Made by a program: the position numbers and the translations under genes. DNA of 64,000 bases, taken from positions 1 through 64,000 of the forward strand of contig NZ_CP042806.1 in the NCBI RefSeq assembly GCF_008000815.1, given 5' to 3'. Below, piece by piece: positions 5,050 through 60,114 of this stretch; within the stretch, counting starts at the first letter, position 1, and each line of letters starts with the position of its first letter. A model generated the notes under the pieces. The model did no database searches, was not told the DNA's origin, and saw nothing but the letters and a program-made list of their open reading frames with translations. This DNA comes from Terriglobus albidus. GTDB taxonomy: Bacteria; Acidobacteriota; Terriglobia; Terriglobales; Acidobacteriaceae.

Positions 5050-5209
5050 TGTTGTTCCTCTTTACCTGTGATGTACCGCTGAATTCTGATGTTTGGAATT
5101 CTGCGTGTTCATCTTTGGGGGAACATGCAGGGATTACAAGATCGGATTCTACGATGTTGCCCAATGATACCAGATTTCCTCAGTGATGTTTTCCCCAGGG
5201 GCACGTCTT

Positions 5210-5324
5210 TAGAGCATTTTCCCTGTTGCTGGGTAGCCCGGCAGGGTGTGCAGCGGCGTTTTCATTGTGGAAAACGCCCATAGATACGGAAGCCCTACTC
5301 TACACCTACAGGGAAAATGCTCTA
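5210..5324. repeat. Palindromic element, family A copy 1 (full)
   Basis: Inverted ends TAGAGCATTTTCCCTGT and ACAGGGAAAATGCTCTA enclose an inner hairpin GGCGTTTTC-ATTGTG-GAAAACGCC near 5257-5280. The outermost bases are TA on both sides. The right boundary supplies the TAG stop codon of the DUF885 gene on the minus strand. Confidence 0.9.
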
Positions 5325-7076
5325 ACGAGCCGCCTTCCGTGCCGCGATCCAGCGGTCGGTTCTGGCATCCAGAACATCCAGGGGGAGCGCCCCTCCGTCC
5401 AGCATCTCGTCGTGGAAAGTCCGGATGTCGAACTTCGGCCCCAATTCTTTCTTCGCCCGCTCCCGTAATTCCACAAATTTCAACTGTCCCAGCTTGTAAG
5501 AGAGCGCCTGGGCCGGCCACGCGATATAGCGGTCCGTCTCCGACTGGATCGTAGGCTCATCCACAGCATGTGAATTTCTCATAAATTCGACCACCTGGTC
5601 CCGCGACCAGCCGAGGTCATGGATTCCCGTATCGACCACCAGGCGCACCGCGCGGAAGAGCTCTGAAGAAAGTCGGCCATAGTCCGAGACCGGATCCTGG
5701 TAGAAACCGACCTCTTTGCCCAGTTGCTCGGCATAGAGCGCCCAGCCCTCAACGTATGCGGAGTTGCCTCCGTGTAGCCGGAAGCTCGGCAGACCGGTTA
5801 GCTGCTGCTGGATCGAAAGCTGCATGTGATGCCCGGGAATCCCCTCGTGGTACGCGACGGCCTCGTCCTTGATGGTGTCGCGACGCTGGAAGTCGGAGAC
5901 AGCAACCGACACGCGGCCCGGCCGCTTTCCATCAGGGGTACCGGTCTGGTAATGAGTCGCCATGGCCGCCTGGAAGGCAGGGATCGCCTCGACGGTGACC
6001 GGTGACTTGGGCAGCAGGGTAAAGAGCTGCGGGAGCTTGGGCTCCATCTGCGCAATCGCCTTGCGGAAGTTGTCGAGGATCTGCTCATCCGAGGTGGGAA
6101 TGTACTTTGGATTCCCCACCAGAGACGCCCGGAAGCTGGCCAGGTCCGGATATCCGGCACGCTTGGCGACTGCGGTCATCTCGGTCTCAATCCGCTTGAT
6201 CTCATCCAGACCGATCTGGTGGATCTTTGCCGGCGGCAGATTCGTCGTGGTGCGGCTATAGATCGCTGCCTGGTAGCGGTGCTTGCCGTCCGGCAATGAG
6301 GTAATCGAAAGCTGCGTCCGGCCATGCGACGCATACTCGTCCCGCACATAGGCAGCAAACTGCCGGTACGCCGGAAACACCTCTTTTTCGACCATTTCGC
6401 TGATCTGATCGGTCAGGCGCTTTTTGTCCGCGTCAGAGAAGCTCGCAGGAAACTTCTGGGTCGGGCGCAGGAATGGGTTGGCACGGATCACTCCATCGCA
6501 CTGTCCTGGAACCTTCTCCAGAAGAAATCGCACCGGCATCAGGTGATCGTTCTCGCCGGCCTTCATCGCTTCGATCGTCTGCTGGAAGACGCGCGGAACC
6601 TGGTGCAGCCGCGCGATGTAGTCCTCATAATGCTTCACCGAATCCAGAGGAACGGCATTCGGAAGATCGGCGAGACTAGTGTGCGGCCCGCCCATCTGGT
6701 CGACGGGCATCTCATAGTCCTTCAGCTCATAGTTCTCGAGAGCCAGCTTCAGGCTGCGGACAGCGAGCTGGTGCGAGAGCAGATCCTGCTCCGGAAATCC
6801 CGCGGTCGAAATCGCATCCAGCTTTGCAAGGTACGCCTTGCGGTGCTCGTTCTGGCGGGCCATCGTCGCCAGGGAGACATCGTCGAGCTGGTCGTTATAG
6901 CGATAGTCACCGTAAGCCGTCGCACGCTGGGGCGACTGCCGCAAACTCTCCTGGAACTCGTCTTCGAAGAGCTTGTTCTGAGCGGCAATCCGCTCTGTGA
7001 CAGGCACAACCTGGGCGAAGGCGGCCGCAGACACAGCAATGCCGCTGGAGAGAACTACCGCACGGAGAAAACGCAT
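5322..7076 (-). CDS. Secreted DUF885 family hydrolase/peptidase-like protein
   Basis: A 584-residue protein with a clear Sec signal peptide (cleavage after ~22 residues, AAAFAQ). The DUF885 body carries the zinc-type motif AYHEGIPGHHMQ (HExxxGHH) near residue 400. A downstream YVEGWALYAEQLGKEVGFY segment has the glutamates typical of the family. Members are common in Acidobacteria and resemble metallopeptidases, but the substrate is unknown. The final codons read ..KAAR then TAG, where TAG is the boundary of a palindromic element. Homologues should show whether residues were lost. Probably transcribed alone. Confidence 0.85.
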   Translation of the reverse strand: MRFLRAVVLSSGIAVSAAAFAQVVPVTERIAAQNKLFEDEFQESLRQSPQRATAYGDYRYNDQLDDVSLATMARQNEHRKAYLAKLDAISTAGFPEQDLLSHQLAVRSLKLALENYELKDYEMPVDQMGGPHTSLADLPNAVPLDSVKHYEDYIARLHQVPRVFQQTIEAMKAGENDHLMPVRFLLEKVPGQCDGVIRANPFLRPTQKFPASFSDADKKRLTDQISEMVEKEVFPAYRQFAAYVRDEYASHGRTQLSITSLPDGKHRYQAAIYSRTTTNLPPAKIHQIGLDEIKRIETEMTAVAKRAGYPDLASFRASLVGNPKYIPTSDEQILDNFRKAIAQMEPKLPQLFTLLPKSPVTVEAIPAFQAAMATHYQTGTPDGKRPGRVSVAVSDFQRRDTIKDEAVAYHEGIPGHHMQLSIQQQLTGLPSFRLHGGNSAYVEGWALYAEQLGKEVGFYQDPVSDYGRLSSELFRAVRLVVDTGIHDLGWSRDQVVEFMRNSHAVDEPTIQSETDRYIAWPAQALSYKLGQLKFVELRERAKKELGPKFDIRTFHDEMLDGGALPLDVLDARTDRWIAARKAAR

Positions 7077-19713: not shown

Positions 19714-19844
19714 CTAGTGTCCTGAGTCTGAAGTTCTCGTCGTAAATTTTGTCATCCGAACGTAGTGAAGGACCTGGTTTTCAACGCTTCGGATGGCAAA
19801 GCTGTTCATGATTTATGTCGCGAACTTTAGACTCACCACGCTAG
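19714..19844. repeat. Palindromic element, family B copy 2
   Basis: Bounded by CTAG at 19714 and 19841. Left end CTAGTGTCCTGAGTCTGAAG pairs imperfectly with the right end, which in reverse reads CTAGCGTGGTGAGTCTAAAG. The left end is near-identical to copy 1 at 4003. The right CTAG is shared with the start of a family A element. Confidence 0.75.
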
Positions 19845-19957
19845 AGCCTTTTTCCTGTAGGCGGAGTGCAGGGCTTGTGTATCTATGGGCGTTTTCTGCA
19901 ATGAAAACGCCACTGCACGCTGCTCCCGGGATACCCAGCAACAGGAAAAATGCTCTA
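19842..19957. repeat. Palindromic element, family A copy 2 (full)
   Basis: TAGAGCCTTTTTCCTGT at the left and ACAGGAAAAATGCTCTA at the right (one mismatch at the outer part), with inner hairpin GGCGTTTTC..GAAAACGCC, in opposite orientation to copy 1. It begins inside the CTAG end of the family B element. Confidence 0.9.
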
Positions 19958-19980: not shown

Positions 19981-20610
19981 TCAGGAGGCGACGCCGTTGG
20001 CCGCTCTCTCCTGAACTCGCCGTGCGACCACCCAGGCGTACTGCACGGCGGAGCAGGGAGCGATTACCGAGATCGCACGCAGCAGCAGGTCGATCGGAGT
20101 CTGGAACGGGAGCCTCGTCCACACCTGCTGCACCAGGATCAGAATCACGGTGACGATCTGGACAGCCGTATTCACCTTGCCCAGCATGCTCGGCGGAAAA
20201 TCGCGCAGCGTATTGGTGACATATAGCAGGGTGCAGACCAGCAGGATGCCGAGATCGCGGCTGAAGACCAGCACTGTAACATACCGCTGCACCAACCCCT
20301 CATGCGTCACTACCAGAAACAGCGTGGAGAGCAGCAGCTTATCCGCAATTGGATCGAGGTACTGGCCCAAAGTGGTGCGCTGCCCCAGCCTACGCGCCAG
20401 CATGCCGTCGAGACCGTCGGAGATGCCGGCGGCCACAAAGAGGATGAAGGCGCCCGACCAGTTGCCGTCAAAGATCTCGATCACCAGAAACGGCACCAGA
20501 AAGAGCCGCAATAGCGTGAGCAGATTGGGGGCCGTACGAAACTGTGCGAGAACGTTCAAGGTGCTTAGCTGCATCTTAGCTGAAACGTCCTCGTGCACCC
20601 GGGTAAGCAT
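19981..20610 (-). CDS. pgsA: CDP-diacylglycerol-glycerol-3-phosphate phosphatidyltransferase (PgsA-like)
   Basis: Membrane enzyme for the committed step of phosphatidylglycerol synthesis. The CDP-alcohol phosphatidyltransferase motif DG-x2-D-G..AR-x8-G-x3-D-x3-D is intact (DGLDGMLARR, then GQYLDPIADK). Several hydrophobic helices flank it. 209 residues is normal. PgsA versus other CDP-alcohol transferases is likely, not certain. A start at the internal ATG (residue 13) is possible. It is transcribed away from tRNA-Val. Confidence 0.85.
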   Translation of the reverse strand: MLTRVHEDVSAKMQLSTLNVLAQFRTAPNLLTLLRLFLVPFLVIEIFDGNWSGAFILFVAAGISDGLDGMLARRLGQRTTLGQYLDPIADKLLLSTLFLVVTHEGLVQRYVTVLVFSRDLGILLVCTLLYVTNTLRDFPPSMLGKVNTAVQIVTVILILVQQVWTRLPFQTPIDLLLRAISVIAPCSAVQYAWVVARRVQERAANGVAS

Positions 20611-20710
20611 GGCACATCCTACACCCCGCTATCCGCTTTGGAGCTTAATCCGGACATCCTTTGGTACAATTGAAGAGTTAGGCGTCCCCGAGATGCCTAT
20701 CCGACCTCTC

Positions 20711-20787
20711 AGGCGCGTAGCTCAGTTGGTTAGAGCGCTACCTTGACACGGTAGAGGTCAGCGGTTCGAATCCGCTCGTGCCTACCA
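20711..20787 (+). tRNA. tRNA-Val (GAC)
   Basis: A complete cloverleaf of 77 nt with encoded CCA. Acceptor AGGCGCG pairs with CGTGCCT (one G-T). D arm GCTC..GAGC, anticodon arm CTACC-TTGACAC-GGTAG with anticodon GAC, and T arm AGCGG-TTCGAAT-CCGCT. Possible -10 TACAAT at 20665. Its 3' half is duplicated at 22910. Confidence 0.97.
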
Positions 20788-20797
20788 TCCCTTTCAA
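20743..20797 (+). repeat. Direct repeat of tRNA-Val 3' half, left copy (att-like)
   Basis: From the anticodon loop TTGACACGG through the CCA end to TCCCTTTCAA. 52 of 55 positions match 22910-22964. Such duplications mark integration by tyrosine recombinases at tRNA 3' ends. Confidence 0.85.
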
Positions 20798-20855
20798 GAA
20801 GATAGACCTCCTAGACCCCGTTCCAGGTCAATTTTCCATTCCGCTTTTCGTTCCG

Positions 20856-20960
20856 CTATTGGATCGACGCGCCGAGTTGCAGGCTCTCCAGGAACTGTCC
20901 CTGGGCGGCCAGCTTGTTGGAATCAACAGCGTGAGTGTAGATTTCCAGGGCGTCGCCTGA
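20856..20960 (-). pseudogene. C-terminal remnant of a tyrosine integrase
   Basis: The minus strand reads GDALEIYTHAVDSNKLAAQG, continuing to TAG at 20856-20858. LEIYTHAV is the typical active-site tyrosine region of tyrosine recombinases, followed by the usual C-terminal helix. The upstream frame is open for a few more codons but no longer resembles an integrase, and it runs into the diguanylate cyclase gene. Its place next to the tRNA att site fits the integrase of the element that once inserted there. Too short for function. Confidence 0.65.
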
Positions 20961-21007
20961 TTGATCCGGTAGTGTGCACCGCACTAGAGCTAAGTGCTGT
21001 AGTTCCA

Positions 21008-22651
21008 TCACGCTGTCTCTGTTCTGTCGCGACCATCCTCCTTGGCTTTATAAAGAGCCGTGTCGGACTTACGAATAAGTTCCTCAGAACTCGTCCCGTG
21101 CTCAGGAAAGGCGGCGATGCCAACTGACATGGTTATTTTGCCCAATGTCTGGCCATTATGCTGGACCGCCAGGCGTGCAAGCTCTTCCCGCAGAACTTCA
21201 GCACGCAGGTATGCAATTTCGAGAGAAGTATCCGTCAGGATGAGAACGAATTCCTCTCCCCCAAAACGGCAGGCCACGTCTTGTCCTCGTATACCTTGAC
21301 CTAGAAATTCCCCCACCGCGCGCAGCAGTACGTCCCCTGCATGATGCCCGAAGGCATCGTTGAACATTTTGAAGTGATCGATATCGATCATGAGGAATGC
21401 CAATGATTGATTGTCGCGGGCTGCACGACGCAACTCCCGCTCCAGAGTCGCTTCCATATAGCGGCGGTTGAAGAGTCCGGTCAGAGAATCCCGAATGGAT
21501 TGATCGCGCAGAACATCGCGCAACCGCAAATTTGCCAGCGCCATCGAAATCCGCTCGGCCGCCGCGCTTGCCGGACGGCTGATCGTCTCCATCGAGGGGG
21601 CAATCGATTGGGAAGAAAACTCGGCCGGAGCAGGCAACTCCACATAAATCGTGCCCAGAGTCTCCCCTTGTGCCGCAAGAGGGATACAGAGATATCCGCT
21701 TGCTGCAGGCCCGGTGACGTGTGCACACCCGAGTGGTGAGTGCGGATCTTTCACGAGGTGAAGCTTGCCCCTTCGCAGAGACCAGCAATGGTACGGAGAA
21801 AATACCTTCTCCGTGGCAAGCGTATCCCCCCAGGTACTTACCACCTCGACGAGATCGCGTGATGGGCTGGTGATGCAAAGTGCGCCAGAGGGGGACGAGA
21901 GAATATTGGGCAGCGCGGCACCAACAACCTCGAAGGCTTCCTCTATGGTCTGACAGGCCTGGAGCAGATCAACCAGCTCGGTTATCCTGTCGGTCTCCTG
22001 CGAACGTTGTTCCGATTCCTGAAGTGCGGCAGATCGTTCTTCATTTGCCTGGACCAGTTCGGCAGTTCGCTCCGCAACTAATGTTTCGAGATTTGCCTTG
22101 TATTCCTCTAGTTCTTGTTCGACTTGTTTGCGATTGGTGATGTCGTGAGAGATCCCCATTGTGCCGATGATTTGACCGCGCTGATTTCGAAGCGGCACCT
22201 TCGTTGTAAGGACCCACGTCTCACGGCCATCCGCCCATGTCTCCTTTTCCTCCTTCCCAATGAGGGCTTGGCCGGTGCGAATAATTTCCTGTTCATCGGC
22301 GAGTGCCTGCTGGGAATGCTCAGAAGTGAAGATATCGGAATCGGACTTTTTGATTGCGTCAGATGGTTCAGCTAATCCAAAGTAATCTGCCATCGCTCGA
22401 TTGATGCGAATAAACCTGCCGCTGCGATCTTTGAAGTACACATTATCGGGAATATGCTCGAAGAACGCATATAGCAATTGCTGCTCAATTCGATGCCGAC
22501 TTAGAATTCGCACCACCAGGAGCACTCCAACTACGGCGGCGAGAGGAGTAACAGCAATGCCTAAACTCGTCAGGAAGGAGGCTTTTGTGGCTGCAACGAA
22601 AAAATCCCCATAAGCCTGAGAGAGGTCTATCGCTAGATGGAAGTTGCTCAT
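21008..22651 (-). CDS. Membrane-anchored PAS-GAF-GGDEF diguanylate cyclase
   Basis: Makes cyclic di-GMP. One N-terminal membrane segment is followed by a PAS domain (FEHIPDNVYFKDRSGRFIRIN), a coiled coil, a GAF-like region and a C-terminal GGDEF domain. The domain has an intact GGEEF active site and an RGQD inhibitory site five residues before it. ATG at 22651 is chosen because GGAGG lies 5 bases upstream; the GTG at 22657 overlaps that site. No EAL domain is present. It is the only intact gene between the two tRNA-Val repeats, so it may have arrived as cargo. Confidence 0.9.
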   Translation of the reverse strand: MSNFHLAIDLSQAYGDFFVAATKASFLTSLGIAVTPLAAVVGVLLVVRILSRHRIEQQLLYAFFEHIPDNVYFKDRSGRFIRINRAMADYFGLAEPSDAIKKSDSDIFTSEHSQQALADEQEIIRTGQALIGKEEKETWADGRETWVLTTKVPLRNQRGQIIGTMGISHDITNRKQVEQELEEYKANLETLVAERTAELVQANEERSAALQESEQRSQETDRITELVDLLQACQTIEEAFEVVGAALPNILSSPSGALCITSPSRDLVEVVSTWGDTLATEKVFSPYHCWSLRRGKLHLVKDPHSPLGCAHVTGPAASGYLCIPLAAQGETLGTIYVELPAPAEFSSQSIAPSMETISRPASAAAERISMALANLRLRDVLRDQSIRDSLTGLFNRRYMEATLERELRRAARDNQSLAFLMIDIDHFKMFNDAFGHHAGDVLLRAVGEFLGQGIRGQDVACRFGGEEFVLILTDTSLEIAYLRAEVLREELARLAVQHNGQTLGKITMSVGIAAFPEHGTSSEELIRKSDTALYKAKEDGRDRTETA

Positions 22652-22909
22652 GGACACCTCCTCAAATCCAAGGACTCCATCACAAGGTCACCAATCGCCT
22701 TGGCTTAGCCCGGGTCAGAGCAGCGATGCACTTGCCGGTTCTTCAGAACGGCCATGCTCTCCCCACTCTCTCATCGGCCCAAAAACAACAATGCTTGAGA
22801 GAGAGCAGTCTACAGCCATGAGTGAACAATTAGGGAGAAAATTTGAGGCCCTGGCTCTAGTTAGTAGAGCCAATGACTAGACATTCCCATTCCGCATCAG
22901 TTCCGCTTT

Positions 22910-22964
22910 TTGACACGGTAGCGGTCAGCGGTTCGAATCCGCTCCTGCCTACCATCCCTCTCAA
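22910..22964 (+). repeat. Direct repeat of tRNA-Val 3' half, right copy (att-like)
   Basis: TTGACACGGTAGCGGTCAGC and onward through CCTACCATCCCTCTCAA. Three mismatches to the tRNA copy. No 5' half is present, so this is not a working tRNA. The ~320 bases after it, up to 23286, hold no recognisable gene. Confidence 0.85.
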
Positions 22965-23285
22965 CAACTTACGGGATTTTCTGGGGTTCTGCGCCGCTCC
23001 ACCTCGCTCCAATAAGGCCCGAACGGGTTGCATTCATTACAACCAACATTTCAGATGCCAGCCTTGGCATTCTCCCCGGCACTTGTCCGATGTACCGGGT
23101 ACGCGGCACGGTCTTTATCGTGCGCCAGTATGTACTGTCTTGCGTTGGCCAATGTTGCGTAACGTGATGCAGCTCCGCAATTGCAACTACTCGCTCAAAT
23201 CGTCTTATTTCCAAACCATCTAGGAACATCCCGTCTGTCACCAGGTTCCCGTTGAATGTTGCGCGTATACTGATCGCGAGAAACT

Positions 23286-24230
23286 ATGCAGCCAACTGAA
23301 ACCGATGTGCCAATCCGTTCCAGTGATGTCTGGCCAGCTTTGCCACAGACGGCGTGGAGTGAGACCTGCGCCACTCTGCAGCTCTGGATGCAGATCGTTG
23401 GTAAGGTCCGGCTTGCACTCATGCCGACGATCAATCACACCTGGAATGTGACGCTCTATCCTACTGTTCGCGGGCTCACGACCTCGCCTATGCCACACGG
23501 CACGCGCATGCTGCAAATCGACTTCGATTTCATGGAGCACGTGCTGCTGCTCGAAACCAGCGAAGGCGGCCGCAGCACTATACCTCTCAAGCCCATGACC
23601 GTCGCTGCGTTCTACCAGCAGGTGATGGCCGAGCTCGATGGACTCGGCACTTCAGTGCGCATCTGGCACATGCCGGTTGAGATTGCGCAGCCTGTTCCTT
23701 TCGAGAAGGACCACACGCACCAAACGTACGACGCTGAATATGCGCAGCGCTTCTGGCGCATTCTGCTACAAACGACGCGGGTTTTCACCATCTTTCGCGC
23801 TCGATTCACAGGTAAGGTGAGCCCGATCCACCTCTTCTGGCGAGCGATGGATCTGGCTTGTACTCGCTTCTCGGGCCGCGCTGCGCCAGAGCACCCGGGC
23901 CTGGCTGGCCTGCCCGATCGCGTCACGCGTGACGCTTATTCGCACGAAGTCAGCAGCTGCGGATTCTGGCCGGGTGCGCCCGGCATAGAGCCGCTTTTTT
24001 ATAGCTACGCGTATCCAGAACCGCCTGGCTATGCGCAGAGCGCCATCGCGCCCGTCCACGCTTCCTTTGACTCTTCGCTTGGCGAGTTCGTGCTGCCCTA
24101 TGAAGATGTGCGCCGATCTGCAGATCCTGACTCTACCCTGCTTCAGTTTCTGCAGAGCACGTATGACGCAGCCGCGAACTGTGCCCGATGGGACCGAACC
24201 GCCCTCGAAGTCGTACCGAGTAATCGCTGA
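23286..24230 (+). CDS. DUF5996 family protein
   Basis: 314 residues matching the DUF5996 pattern: WPALPQTAWSETCATLQLWMQIVGK near the start, HTWNVTLYPTVRGLTTS, and a C-terminal SSCGFWPG..FYSYAYPEP region. No catalytic motif, signal or membrane segment is evident. The biochemical function of the family is not known to me. It stands alone, convergent with the hydrolase gene that follows. Confidence 0.8.
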   Translation: MQPTETDVPIRSSDVWPALPQTAWSETCATLQLWMQIVGKVRLALMPTINHTWNVTLYPTVRGLTTSPMPHGTRMLQIDFDFMEHVLLLETSEGGRSTIPLKPMTVAAFYQQVMAELDGLGTSVRIWHMPVEIAQPVPFEKDHTHQTYDAEYAQRFWRILLQTTRVFTIFRARFTGKVSPIHLFWRAMDLACTRFSGRAAPEHPGLAGLPDRVTRDAYSHEVSSCGFWPGAPGIEPLFYSYAYPEPPGYAQSAIAPVHASFDSSLGEFVLPYEDVRRSADPDSTLLQFLQSTYDAAANCARWDRTALEVVPSNR

Positions 24231-32955: not shown

Positions 32956-33031
32956 ATATGGGCGTTTTCCGCAATGGAAACGCCAGAGCACGCCCCTTTC
33001 GGGATACTCAGAAACAGGGAAAAACGCTTTA
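32956..33031. repeat. Family A element, right part only
   Basis: Begins at the inner hairpin ATGGGCGTTTTCC..GGAAACGCC and runs to the end ACAGGGAAAAACGCTTTA. The first ~36 bases of a complete element are missing. Same orientation as copy 2 at 19842. Confidence 0.8.
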
Positions 33032-50659: not shown

Positions 50660-50774
50660 TAGAGCATTTTTCCTGTTGCCGGATATCCCTGGAGAAGCGT
50701 GCGGCGACGTTTTCATTGCGGAAAACGCCCATAGATACACAAGCCCTGCACTACACCTACAGGAAAAATGCTCA
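50660..50774. repeat. Palindromic element, family A copy 3 (full)
   Basis: TAGAGCATTTTTCCTGT left end, ACAGGAAAAATGCTCAA right end (outer T lost), inner ACGTTTTC..GAAAACG hairpin. It lies in the 526-base gap between the SDR and glycosyltransferase genes, which otherwise shows nothing recognisable. Confidence 0.88.
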
Positions 50775-50966
50775 AGCGCGTGGATTACCACATACGGACA
50801 TTACTCCCAAAAGGCGAAGGTTTCGTCCCAACCGCTTTTAAAGCATCCGGCGCCCTCGCTGTTGATAGGGGAAAAGGCAAAAACGGTCAAATTCACGAGA
50901 GCCCTCCAGCATGCCGTGATAGAGTGGGAGACCTCCCCGAAGTAAGCTTTGGAGGATAGTCACCTG

Positions 50967-59947: not shown

Positions 59948-59996
59948 CGATCTCCCAAGATCTTTCTGTGGCCGACCTTACTACAGAGAACGTGAA

Positions 59997-60114
59997 TAGA
60001 GCATTTTTCCTGTTGCTGGGTATCCCGGAAGGAGCGTGCAGCGGCGTTTTCATTGAGGAAAACGCCCATAGATGCAAAAGCCCTGCACTACTACACCTAC
60101 AGGAAAATACTCCA
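59997..60114. repeat. Palindromic element, family A copy 5 (full)
   Basis: TAGAGCATTTTTCCTGT left; right end ACAGGAAAATACTCCAA has drifted. Inner GGCGTTTTC-ATTGAG-GAAAACGCC hairpin. Same orientation as copy 1 at 5210, with the same internal TAGATGCAAAAGCCCTGCAC stretch. Confidence 0.88.

Follow-up and report, generated by a model that had tools for sequence, protein, structure and literature searches.

The DNA analysed here (64,000 nucleotides of Terriglobus albidus, contig NZ_CP042806.1, positions 1 to 64,000; called the window below) contains, between a tRNA-Val(GAC) gene and a displaced copy of its 3' part, 2.2 kb that are probably the remnant of a decayed element integrated at the anticodon loop of this tRNA gene, CIME-like in its organization, with a diguanylate cyclase as cargo and with apparent signs of a prior element at the same tRNA. 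The features concerned are listed here by position, with G-numbers designating individual genomes used for comparison.

20711-20787, plus strand: tRNA-Val(GAC), the intact integration target (ARAGORN, Rfam tRNA)
20743-20800, plus strand: att copy on the tRNA side (direct repeat, boundary bases; the block of identity starts within the anticodon loop, at tRNA position 33)
20788-50861: variable region, extending from tRNA-Val up to where DNA collinear with G001 and G010 resumes (comparison with congeners)
20838-20857, plus strand: left motif pair ATTCCGC..GTTCCGC, a candidate integrase arm-type site (one of two pairs in 64 kb)
20856-20957, minus strand: putative integrase C-terminal remnant, 33 residues plus stop (similar to tails in G048, G039 and G213; no Pfam match)
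21008-22657, minus strand: intact PAS-GAF-GGDEF diguanylate cyclase of 549 aa (Pfam PAS_4, GAF and GGDEF; RxxD I-site, GGEEF)
22889-22907, plus strand: right motif pair ATTCCGC..GTTCCGC, lying immediately within the distal end (missed by a stricter fixed-spacing pattern)
22910-22967, plus strand: displaced att copy of the tRNA 3' part (54/58)
22955-23038: flank that directly follows tRNA-Val in G010 (69/84) and G008 (64/84) and that probably represents the border of an earlier element (sequence match)
22995-23011, plus strand: motif pair CGCTCCA..CGCTCCA of the G008-type integrase group (the only such pair in 64 kb)

A first-pass annotation of the window had reported that the 3' part of tRNA-Val(GAC) is repeated at 22910 with 52 of 55 matches, and our recount agrees, with 43 of 45 matches inside the tRNA and 54 of 58 over the full repeat, the fragment lying at the far end of the 2.2 kb. 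Both att copies (attL and attR) have been kept. A search with the final 25 bases of the tRNA, allowing up to 3 mismatches, gave 2 matches in the window and none in 100 shuffled sequences, which rules out a chance repeat, and in a whole-genome search the displaced copy was found with an E value of 4e-14. A good match to tRNA-Val(GAC) is present in 18 of the 19 genomes of the genus, the own genome included, the exception being G011 (70% complete). Displaced 3' copies were found in three congeners, at a distance of 26.6 kb in G001 (45/45), of 12.8 kb in G006 (45/45) and on another contig in G016 (48/48), and the base at which the copy starts, tRNA position 33, is identical in the window, G001 and G006.

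In order to find an unoccupied site with a single att among the relatives, as the first-pass annotation had proposed, the DNA downstream of the tRNA was read in 17 genomes besides the window, for three of which only 369-537 bases were available. A junction-type match was obtained in two congeners, where the bases located 3' of the tRNA correspond to 22955-23038 of the window in 69 of 84 positions (G010) and in 64 of 84 positions (G008). The bases that follow the tRNA in the window itself match the same stretches in only 25 (G010) and 21 (G008) of 84 positions, and a survey of 211,217 offsets in DNA downstream of the tRNA across the genus gave 21.2 matches on average, with 40 of 84 as the best value besides G010 and G008. 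In the next 36 bases beyond the flank the matches drop to 14 (G010) and 12 (G008); the unoccupied site is therefore seen as an 84-base junction, and the wider right-hand neighbourhood is joined to the tRNA in none of the congeners. This comparison indicates that the 2.2 kb are a real insertion at tRNA-Val(GAC).

Next to the tRNA, on the minus strand, the first-pass annotation had placed a C-terminal piece of an integrase. The corresponding frame (20859-20957) encodes 33 residues followed by a stop. It has no match in Pfam, and in none of the congeners was a match to this tail detected at an E value of 0.001. When 300 genomes of the family were searched, 14 of them, including the own genome, had a match at an E value of 0.01, and the best non-self tails, those of G048 (71% identity), G039 (65%) and G213 (61%), belong to three other genera and all adjoin tRNA-Val(GAC). 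Since Pfam is silent, it is this similarity to integrase tails beside tRNA-Val(GAC) elsewhere on which the assignment to an integrase is based, and to this extent the earlier identification is borne out. The 13 non-self tail loci are accompanied by tRNA-Val (5), tRNA-Phe (5), tRNA-Asp (1) or no tRNA (2). The bases following the stop codon of the integrases of G039 and G048 are nearly identical to those of the window, and G213 has a variant of them. The open frame behind the tail extends over 420 in G039 and over 46 in G213, the latter value indicating that the G213 integrase is itself a remnant. With the G039 integrase as query, 39 of the 300 genomes had a match at 1e-50; among the 30 matches listed, 10 lie at tRNA-Val(GAC), 8 at tRNA-Phe, 4 at tRNA-Asp, 1 at tRNA-Ala and 7 at no tRNA. 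No integrase of the G039 type was found in the own genome at an E value of 1e-50.

The two ends of the 2.2 kb are also marked by a pair of short motifs. The pattern RTTCCGC-N(3-8)-RTTCCGC, devised post hoc from the sequence already seen, has two occurrences in 64 kb, one just inside each end (20838 and 22889), whereas 100 first-order simulations gave 0.05 occurrences on average and never more than 1. With a fixed-spacing form of the motif pair, the left pair was found and the right pair was not. The ATTCCGC..GTTCCGC pair is also present beside the integrases of G039 and G048, and the pairs may represent arm-type sites of the integrase.

Directly to the right of the displaced copy, the 84-base flank seems to hold traces of a second element, which would be an addition to the first-pass account. 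In G008, this flank ends at the stop codon of a different tyrosine integrase, and a GCTCCA/TGGAGC pair lies between integrase and tRNA sequence in G008, G135, G214, G297 and G179 (the comparison comprised G008 and five relatives from the family, of which G171 was left out as its stretch contains no tRNA sequence). The CGCTCCA pair of the window, for which simulations give a mean of 0.03 in 64 kb (0.14 for a looser form), is found in G010 too. A tRNA scan of ten G008-type loci yielded tRNA-Val(GAC) in G008, G135, G164 and G153, tRNA-Asn in G214 and tRNA-Asp in G124, and no tRNA was called in G297, G179, G171 and G255; in G297 and G179, tRNA-Val-like sequence reaches up to the end of the stretch examined. 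The segment 22955-23038 thus resembles the left border of an earlier element which used a different integrase and whose own integrase is gone, and as this flank carries the motif pair of a different integrase group at the same tRNA, two elements in succession appear to have left footprints here. Between 23100 and 64000, neither a second CGCTCCA pair, as a right end of the second element, nor a third copy of the tRNA was detected, the best ungapped matches to the 45-base core being 25/45 on the plus and 26/45 on the minus strand. The next gene, encoding a DUF5996 protein, is present in 5 of the 19 genomes of the genus, the own genome included, and is located far from this tRNA in the other four.

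Between the two att copies, the cyclase is the only intact gene that we recognised, as had been stated in the first-pass annotation; its GGDEF domain is matched by Pfam (4e-51), and its active-site and inhibitory-site motifs are confirmed, RGQD-VACRF-GGEEF beginning at residue 457 with five residues between RGQD and GGEEF. The frame at 20923-21123 (minus strand) has no Pfam match; it was the only one scanned against Pfam among the remaining open reading frames of at least 60 aa wholly between the copies, which overlap the cyclase or are short. The GGDEF part is similar to the solved chains of PleD and WspR, and residues 32-52 form a candidate membrane helix (by eye). Judging by its motifs only, the enzyme would be expected to make c-di-GMP under the control of its PAS and GAF domains and with product inhibition. 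The own genome contains 30 further places that match the GGDEF part, so that one more cyclase is a small addition. A scan for promoters and terminators in 20600-23300 detected none, which is below the means of shuffled sequences, and is uninformative for this phylum.

At a threshold of 1e-60, a match to the cyclase was found in 5 of the 19 genomes of the genus, including the own genome, and the matches other than the gene itself start at residue 195 or later and have identities of 39-44%. A full-length relative was found in 0 of 18 congeners, an absence that is firmest outside the four genomes that are less than 90% complete or otherwise incomplete. Conserved synteny of the cyclase in all relatives, named in the first-pass annotation as the observation that would contradict it, was looked for and is rejected on these grounds. 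In the 300 genomes of the family, scored for 4 first-look candidates per genome, at least 17 (including the own genome) reach 1e-95, and the best family match listed has 61% identity over residues 199-547, fused to different N-terminal parts. A scan of GTDB genomes revealed at least 80 loci; among the matches listed, the best identity was 45%, for a partial protein, and several of the nearest named relatives are Acidobacteriaceae. Viral contigs contain 7 relatives in which the match is confined to residues 355-549. The search for the cyclase in other islands, also proposed at the outset, gave no instance among the loci covered: ARAGORN called 9 tRNAs in 4 of the 80 GTDB loci scanned, with no tRNA-Val among them, and six cyclase loci of the family had no tRNA and, by eye in their lists of open reading frames, no integrase. 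The GC3 of the cyclase is 0.55, compared to 0.68-0.78 for the three upstream genes, and does not decide its origin because other genes of the window range from 0.55 to 0.70.

Three other explanations of these data were weighed. If the repeat were a partial duplication of the tRNA with no link to site-specific integration, it would matter that the integrase evidence within the window amounts to 33 residues; such a duplication, however, does not account for the junction comparison, for the integrase tails that adjoin this tRNA in members of other genera, for the motif pairs at both ends or for the copies in G001 and G006 with the same start base, and we consider it highly improbable, the junction result already disfavouring it. 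More credit, within what is still an unlikely explanation, is due to the idea that the 84-base flank is ordinary chromosome and that a single element was ever present: the flank is common to three congeners, G010 has no visible integrase in the 505 bases available, and the first ~17 bases after the tRNA are alike at several loci. This is countered by the tyrosine integrase of G008, at whose stop codon the flank ends, and by the recurrence of the CGCTCCA pair in other genera, where it separates tRNA-Val sequence from related integrases.

The origin of the cyclase leaves the widest room for doubt, as it may have been a later, independent arrival, recombined from the chromosomal pool of the family into a decayed element that already resided at the tRNA. 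The nearest family relatives of its catalytic half (53-61% identity) lie in stretches devoid of tRNAs that look chromosomal by eye, and the cyclase was seen in no island elsewhere. On the other hand, no repeat or transposase was noticed around the cyclase in the 2.2 kb, and the cyclase abuts the integrase remnant in a manner explicable by one deletion; a later arrival is therefore possible in our view but rather unlikely.

We infer the following order of events for the decayed element with its cyclase cargo, and we likewise infer that the cyclase arrived with the element. An earlier element with a different integrase would have used the same tRNA, its left edge surviving at 22955-23038. A mobile element would then have inserted itself into tRNA-Val(GAC), at the anticodon loop, by means of its own tyrosine integrase, restoring the tRNA with the 3' part that it brought along and displacing the chromosomal copy to 22910. 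Internal loss would have reduced the integrase to 33 codons and removed any transfer genes, and the remainder of about 2.2 kb comprises both att copies, the motif pair inside each end and one intact cyclase. To judge from one relative, G039, the part that was lost may have been ICE-like. The first-pass annotation had proposed a decayed tRNA-targeted element kept for its c-di-GMP enzyme. Support for the decayed element is good and comes from the junction comparison, from the related integrases at the same tRNA and from the motif pairs, which match between the two ends. That selection has retained the cyclase is plausible, because the gene is intact while the integrase is down to 33 codons.

The best name for the 2.2 kb appears to be a CIME-like remnant with a cyclase cargo, and hence a known kind of object. 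According to PMC5704250, the decay of an ICE or IME can leave a CIME in which attL and attR are still in place, and a later element can join it by accretion. The 2.2 kb share with this the two att sites and the loss of the genes for integration and transfer (an integrase remnant is all that is left, no other such gene being recognised), and they seem to share with tandem accretion the use of one site in tandem by elements with different integrases; they differ in that no functional element adjoins, both neighbours being decayed, and in being known from sequence alone. Diguanylate cyclases as cargo of integrative elements are described in the relevant passages on SXT/R391 ICEs (PMC2791158, PMC4542580) and on island VPII of Vibrio alginolyticus, which has three (PMC10672970), but these elements are far larger, belong to other phyla, have reported phenotypes and occupy prfC and trmA instead of tRNA-Val. 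As in the tRNA islands of the Islander type (PMC4383910, as outlined there), an intact tRNA gene and a displaced fragment mark the ends, whereas an encoded integrase is needed in that approach, so that a remnant like the present one is omitted. There is also a likeness with the ICE-like element of G039, which shares the tail (65% over 31 residues), the same tRNA-Val(GAC) and the same motif pair, but has an open integrase of 414 residues and conjugation genes. In that genome (L208, 788-15941), the run at tRNA-Val(GAC) consists of integrase, HTH, ArdC, ParB, a HerA/SIR2 pair and type IV secretion genes, the transfer genes after the integrase being VirB4/TrbE, CagX, TrbI and TrbL; they are assigned to the element by proximity, as its distal end was not found within 39.7 kb. 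In G048, contig C10 begins at tRNA-Val and a truncated integrase, and an inverted partial copy of tRNA-Val is present near the far end of the contig (oriented 20125-20177). For Sinorhizobium, PMC11476347 describes tRNA hotspots into which elements have integrated repeatedly, and a narrow look at excerpts of the literature on Acidobacteria, PMC5900883 included, yielded no account of the tRNA-Val(GAC) site.

As a further point beyond the first-pass account, the 2.2 kb are the part nearest to the tRNA of a variable region about 30 kb long: the pgsA side of the tRNA is widely conserved, but in the opposite direction DNA collinear with G001 and G010 does not reappear until close to 50862. Integrases beside this tRNA were identified by Pfam in G001, G006, G008 and G016, that is, in 4 of five genomes chosen by eye from lists of open reading frames; an open reading frame of G018 with an integrase-like end by eye had no support from Pfam and was not counted. 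The island of G001 (L141, L142) extends over 26.6 kb from tRNA-Val to the displaced copy and carries enzymes for pectin and rhamnogalacturonan as well as a phage capsid gene. That of G006 (L143, 5367-10286) contains PRTase-CE, ORC-CDC6-like, CARF-type and methylase genes, which may constitute a defence cluster, together with an open integrase of 394 residues. At the far edge of the region, 50420-50662 matches DNA that is found beyond the 50949 gene, on its opposite side, in G010 and G001, pointing to a small rearrangement. A dispersed palindromic repeat of about 117 bases that forms a strong hairpin (z -5.3) occurs at 19841-19957, 50660-50776 (inverted), 5205-5327, 32957-33023 and 59993-60112; near each edge of the 30 kb region sits one member of an inverted pair (90%), at least 40 scored copies (334 first-look candidates) exist in the own genome, and the repeat is also present in G001.

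The motif pairs offer a simple handle for detecting integrase-less remnants, which are omitted by island finders that depend on integrases. It is doubtful that the 2.2 kb remnant is a mobile signalling cassette, with att and arm sites that still work and that could be mobilised by incoming elements specific for tRNA-Val(GAC); if it were, c-di-GMP output would be one interchangeable cargo of the tRNA-Val(GAC) slot, with pectin-use genes (G001) and defence-type genes (G006, G039) as fellow cargoes. Particular to the window are the reduction to one regulatory gene, the readability of both ends and the two stacked integrase footprints. It would show how a tRNA-targeted element is worn down to one regulatory gene with its integration ends still readable, and that one tRNA gene can hold the footprints of two different elements.
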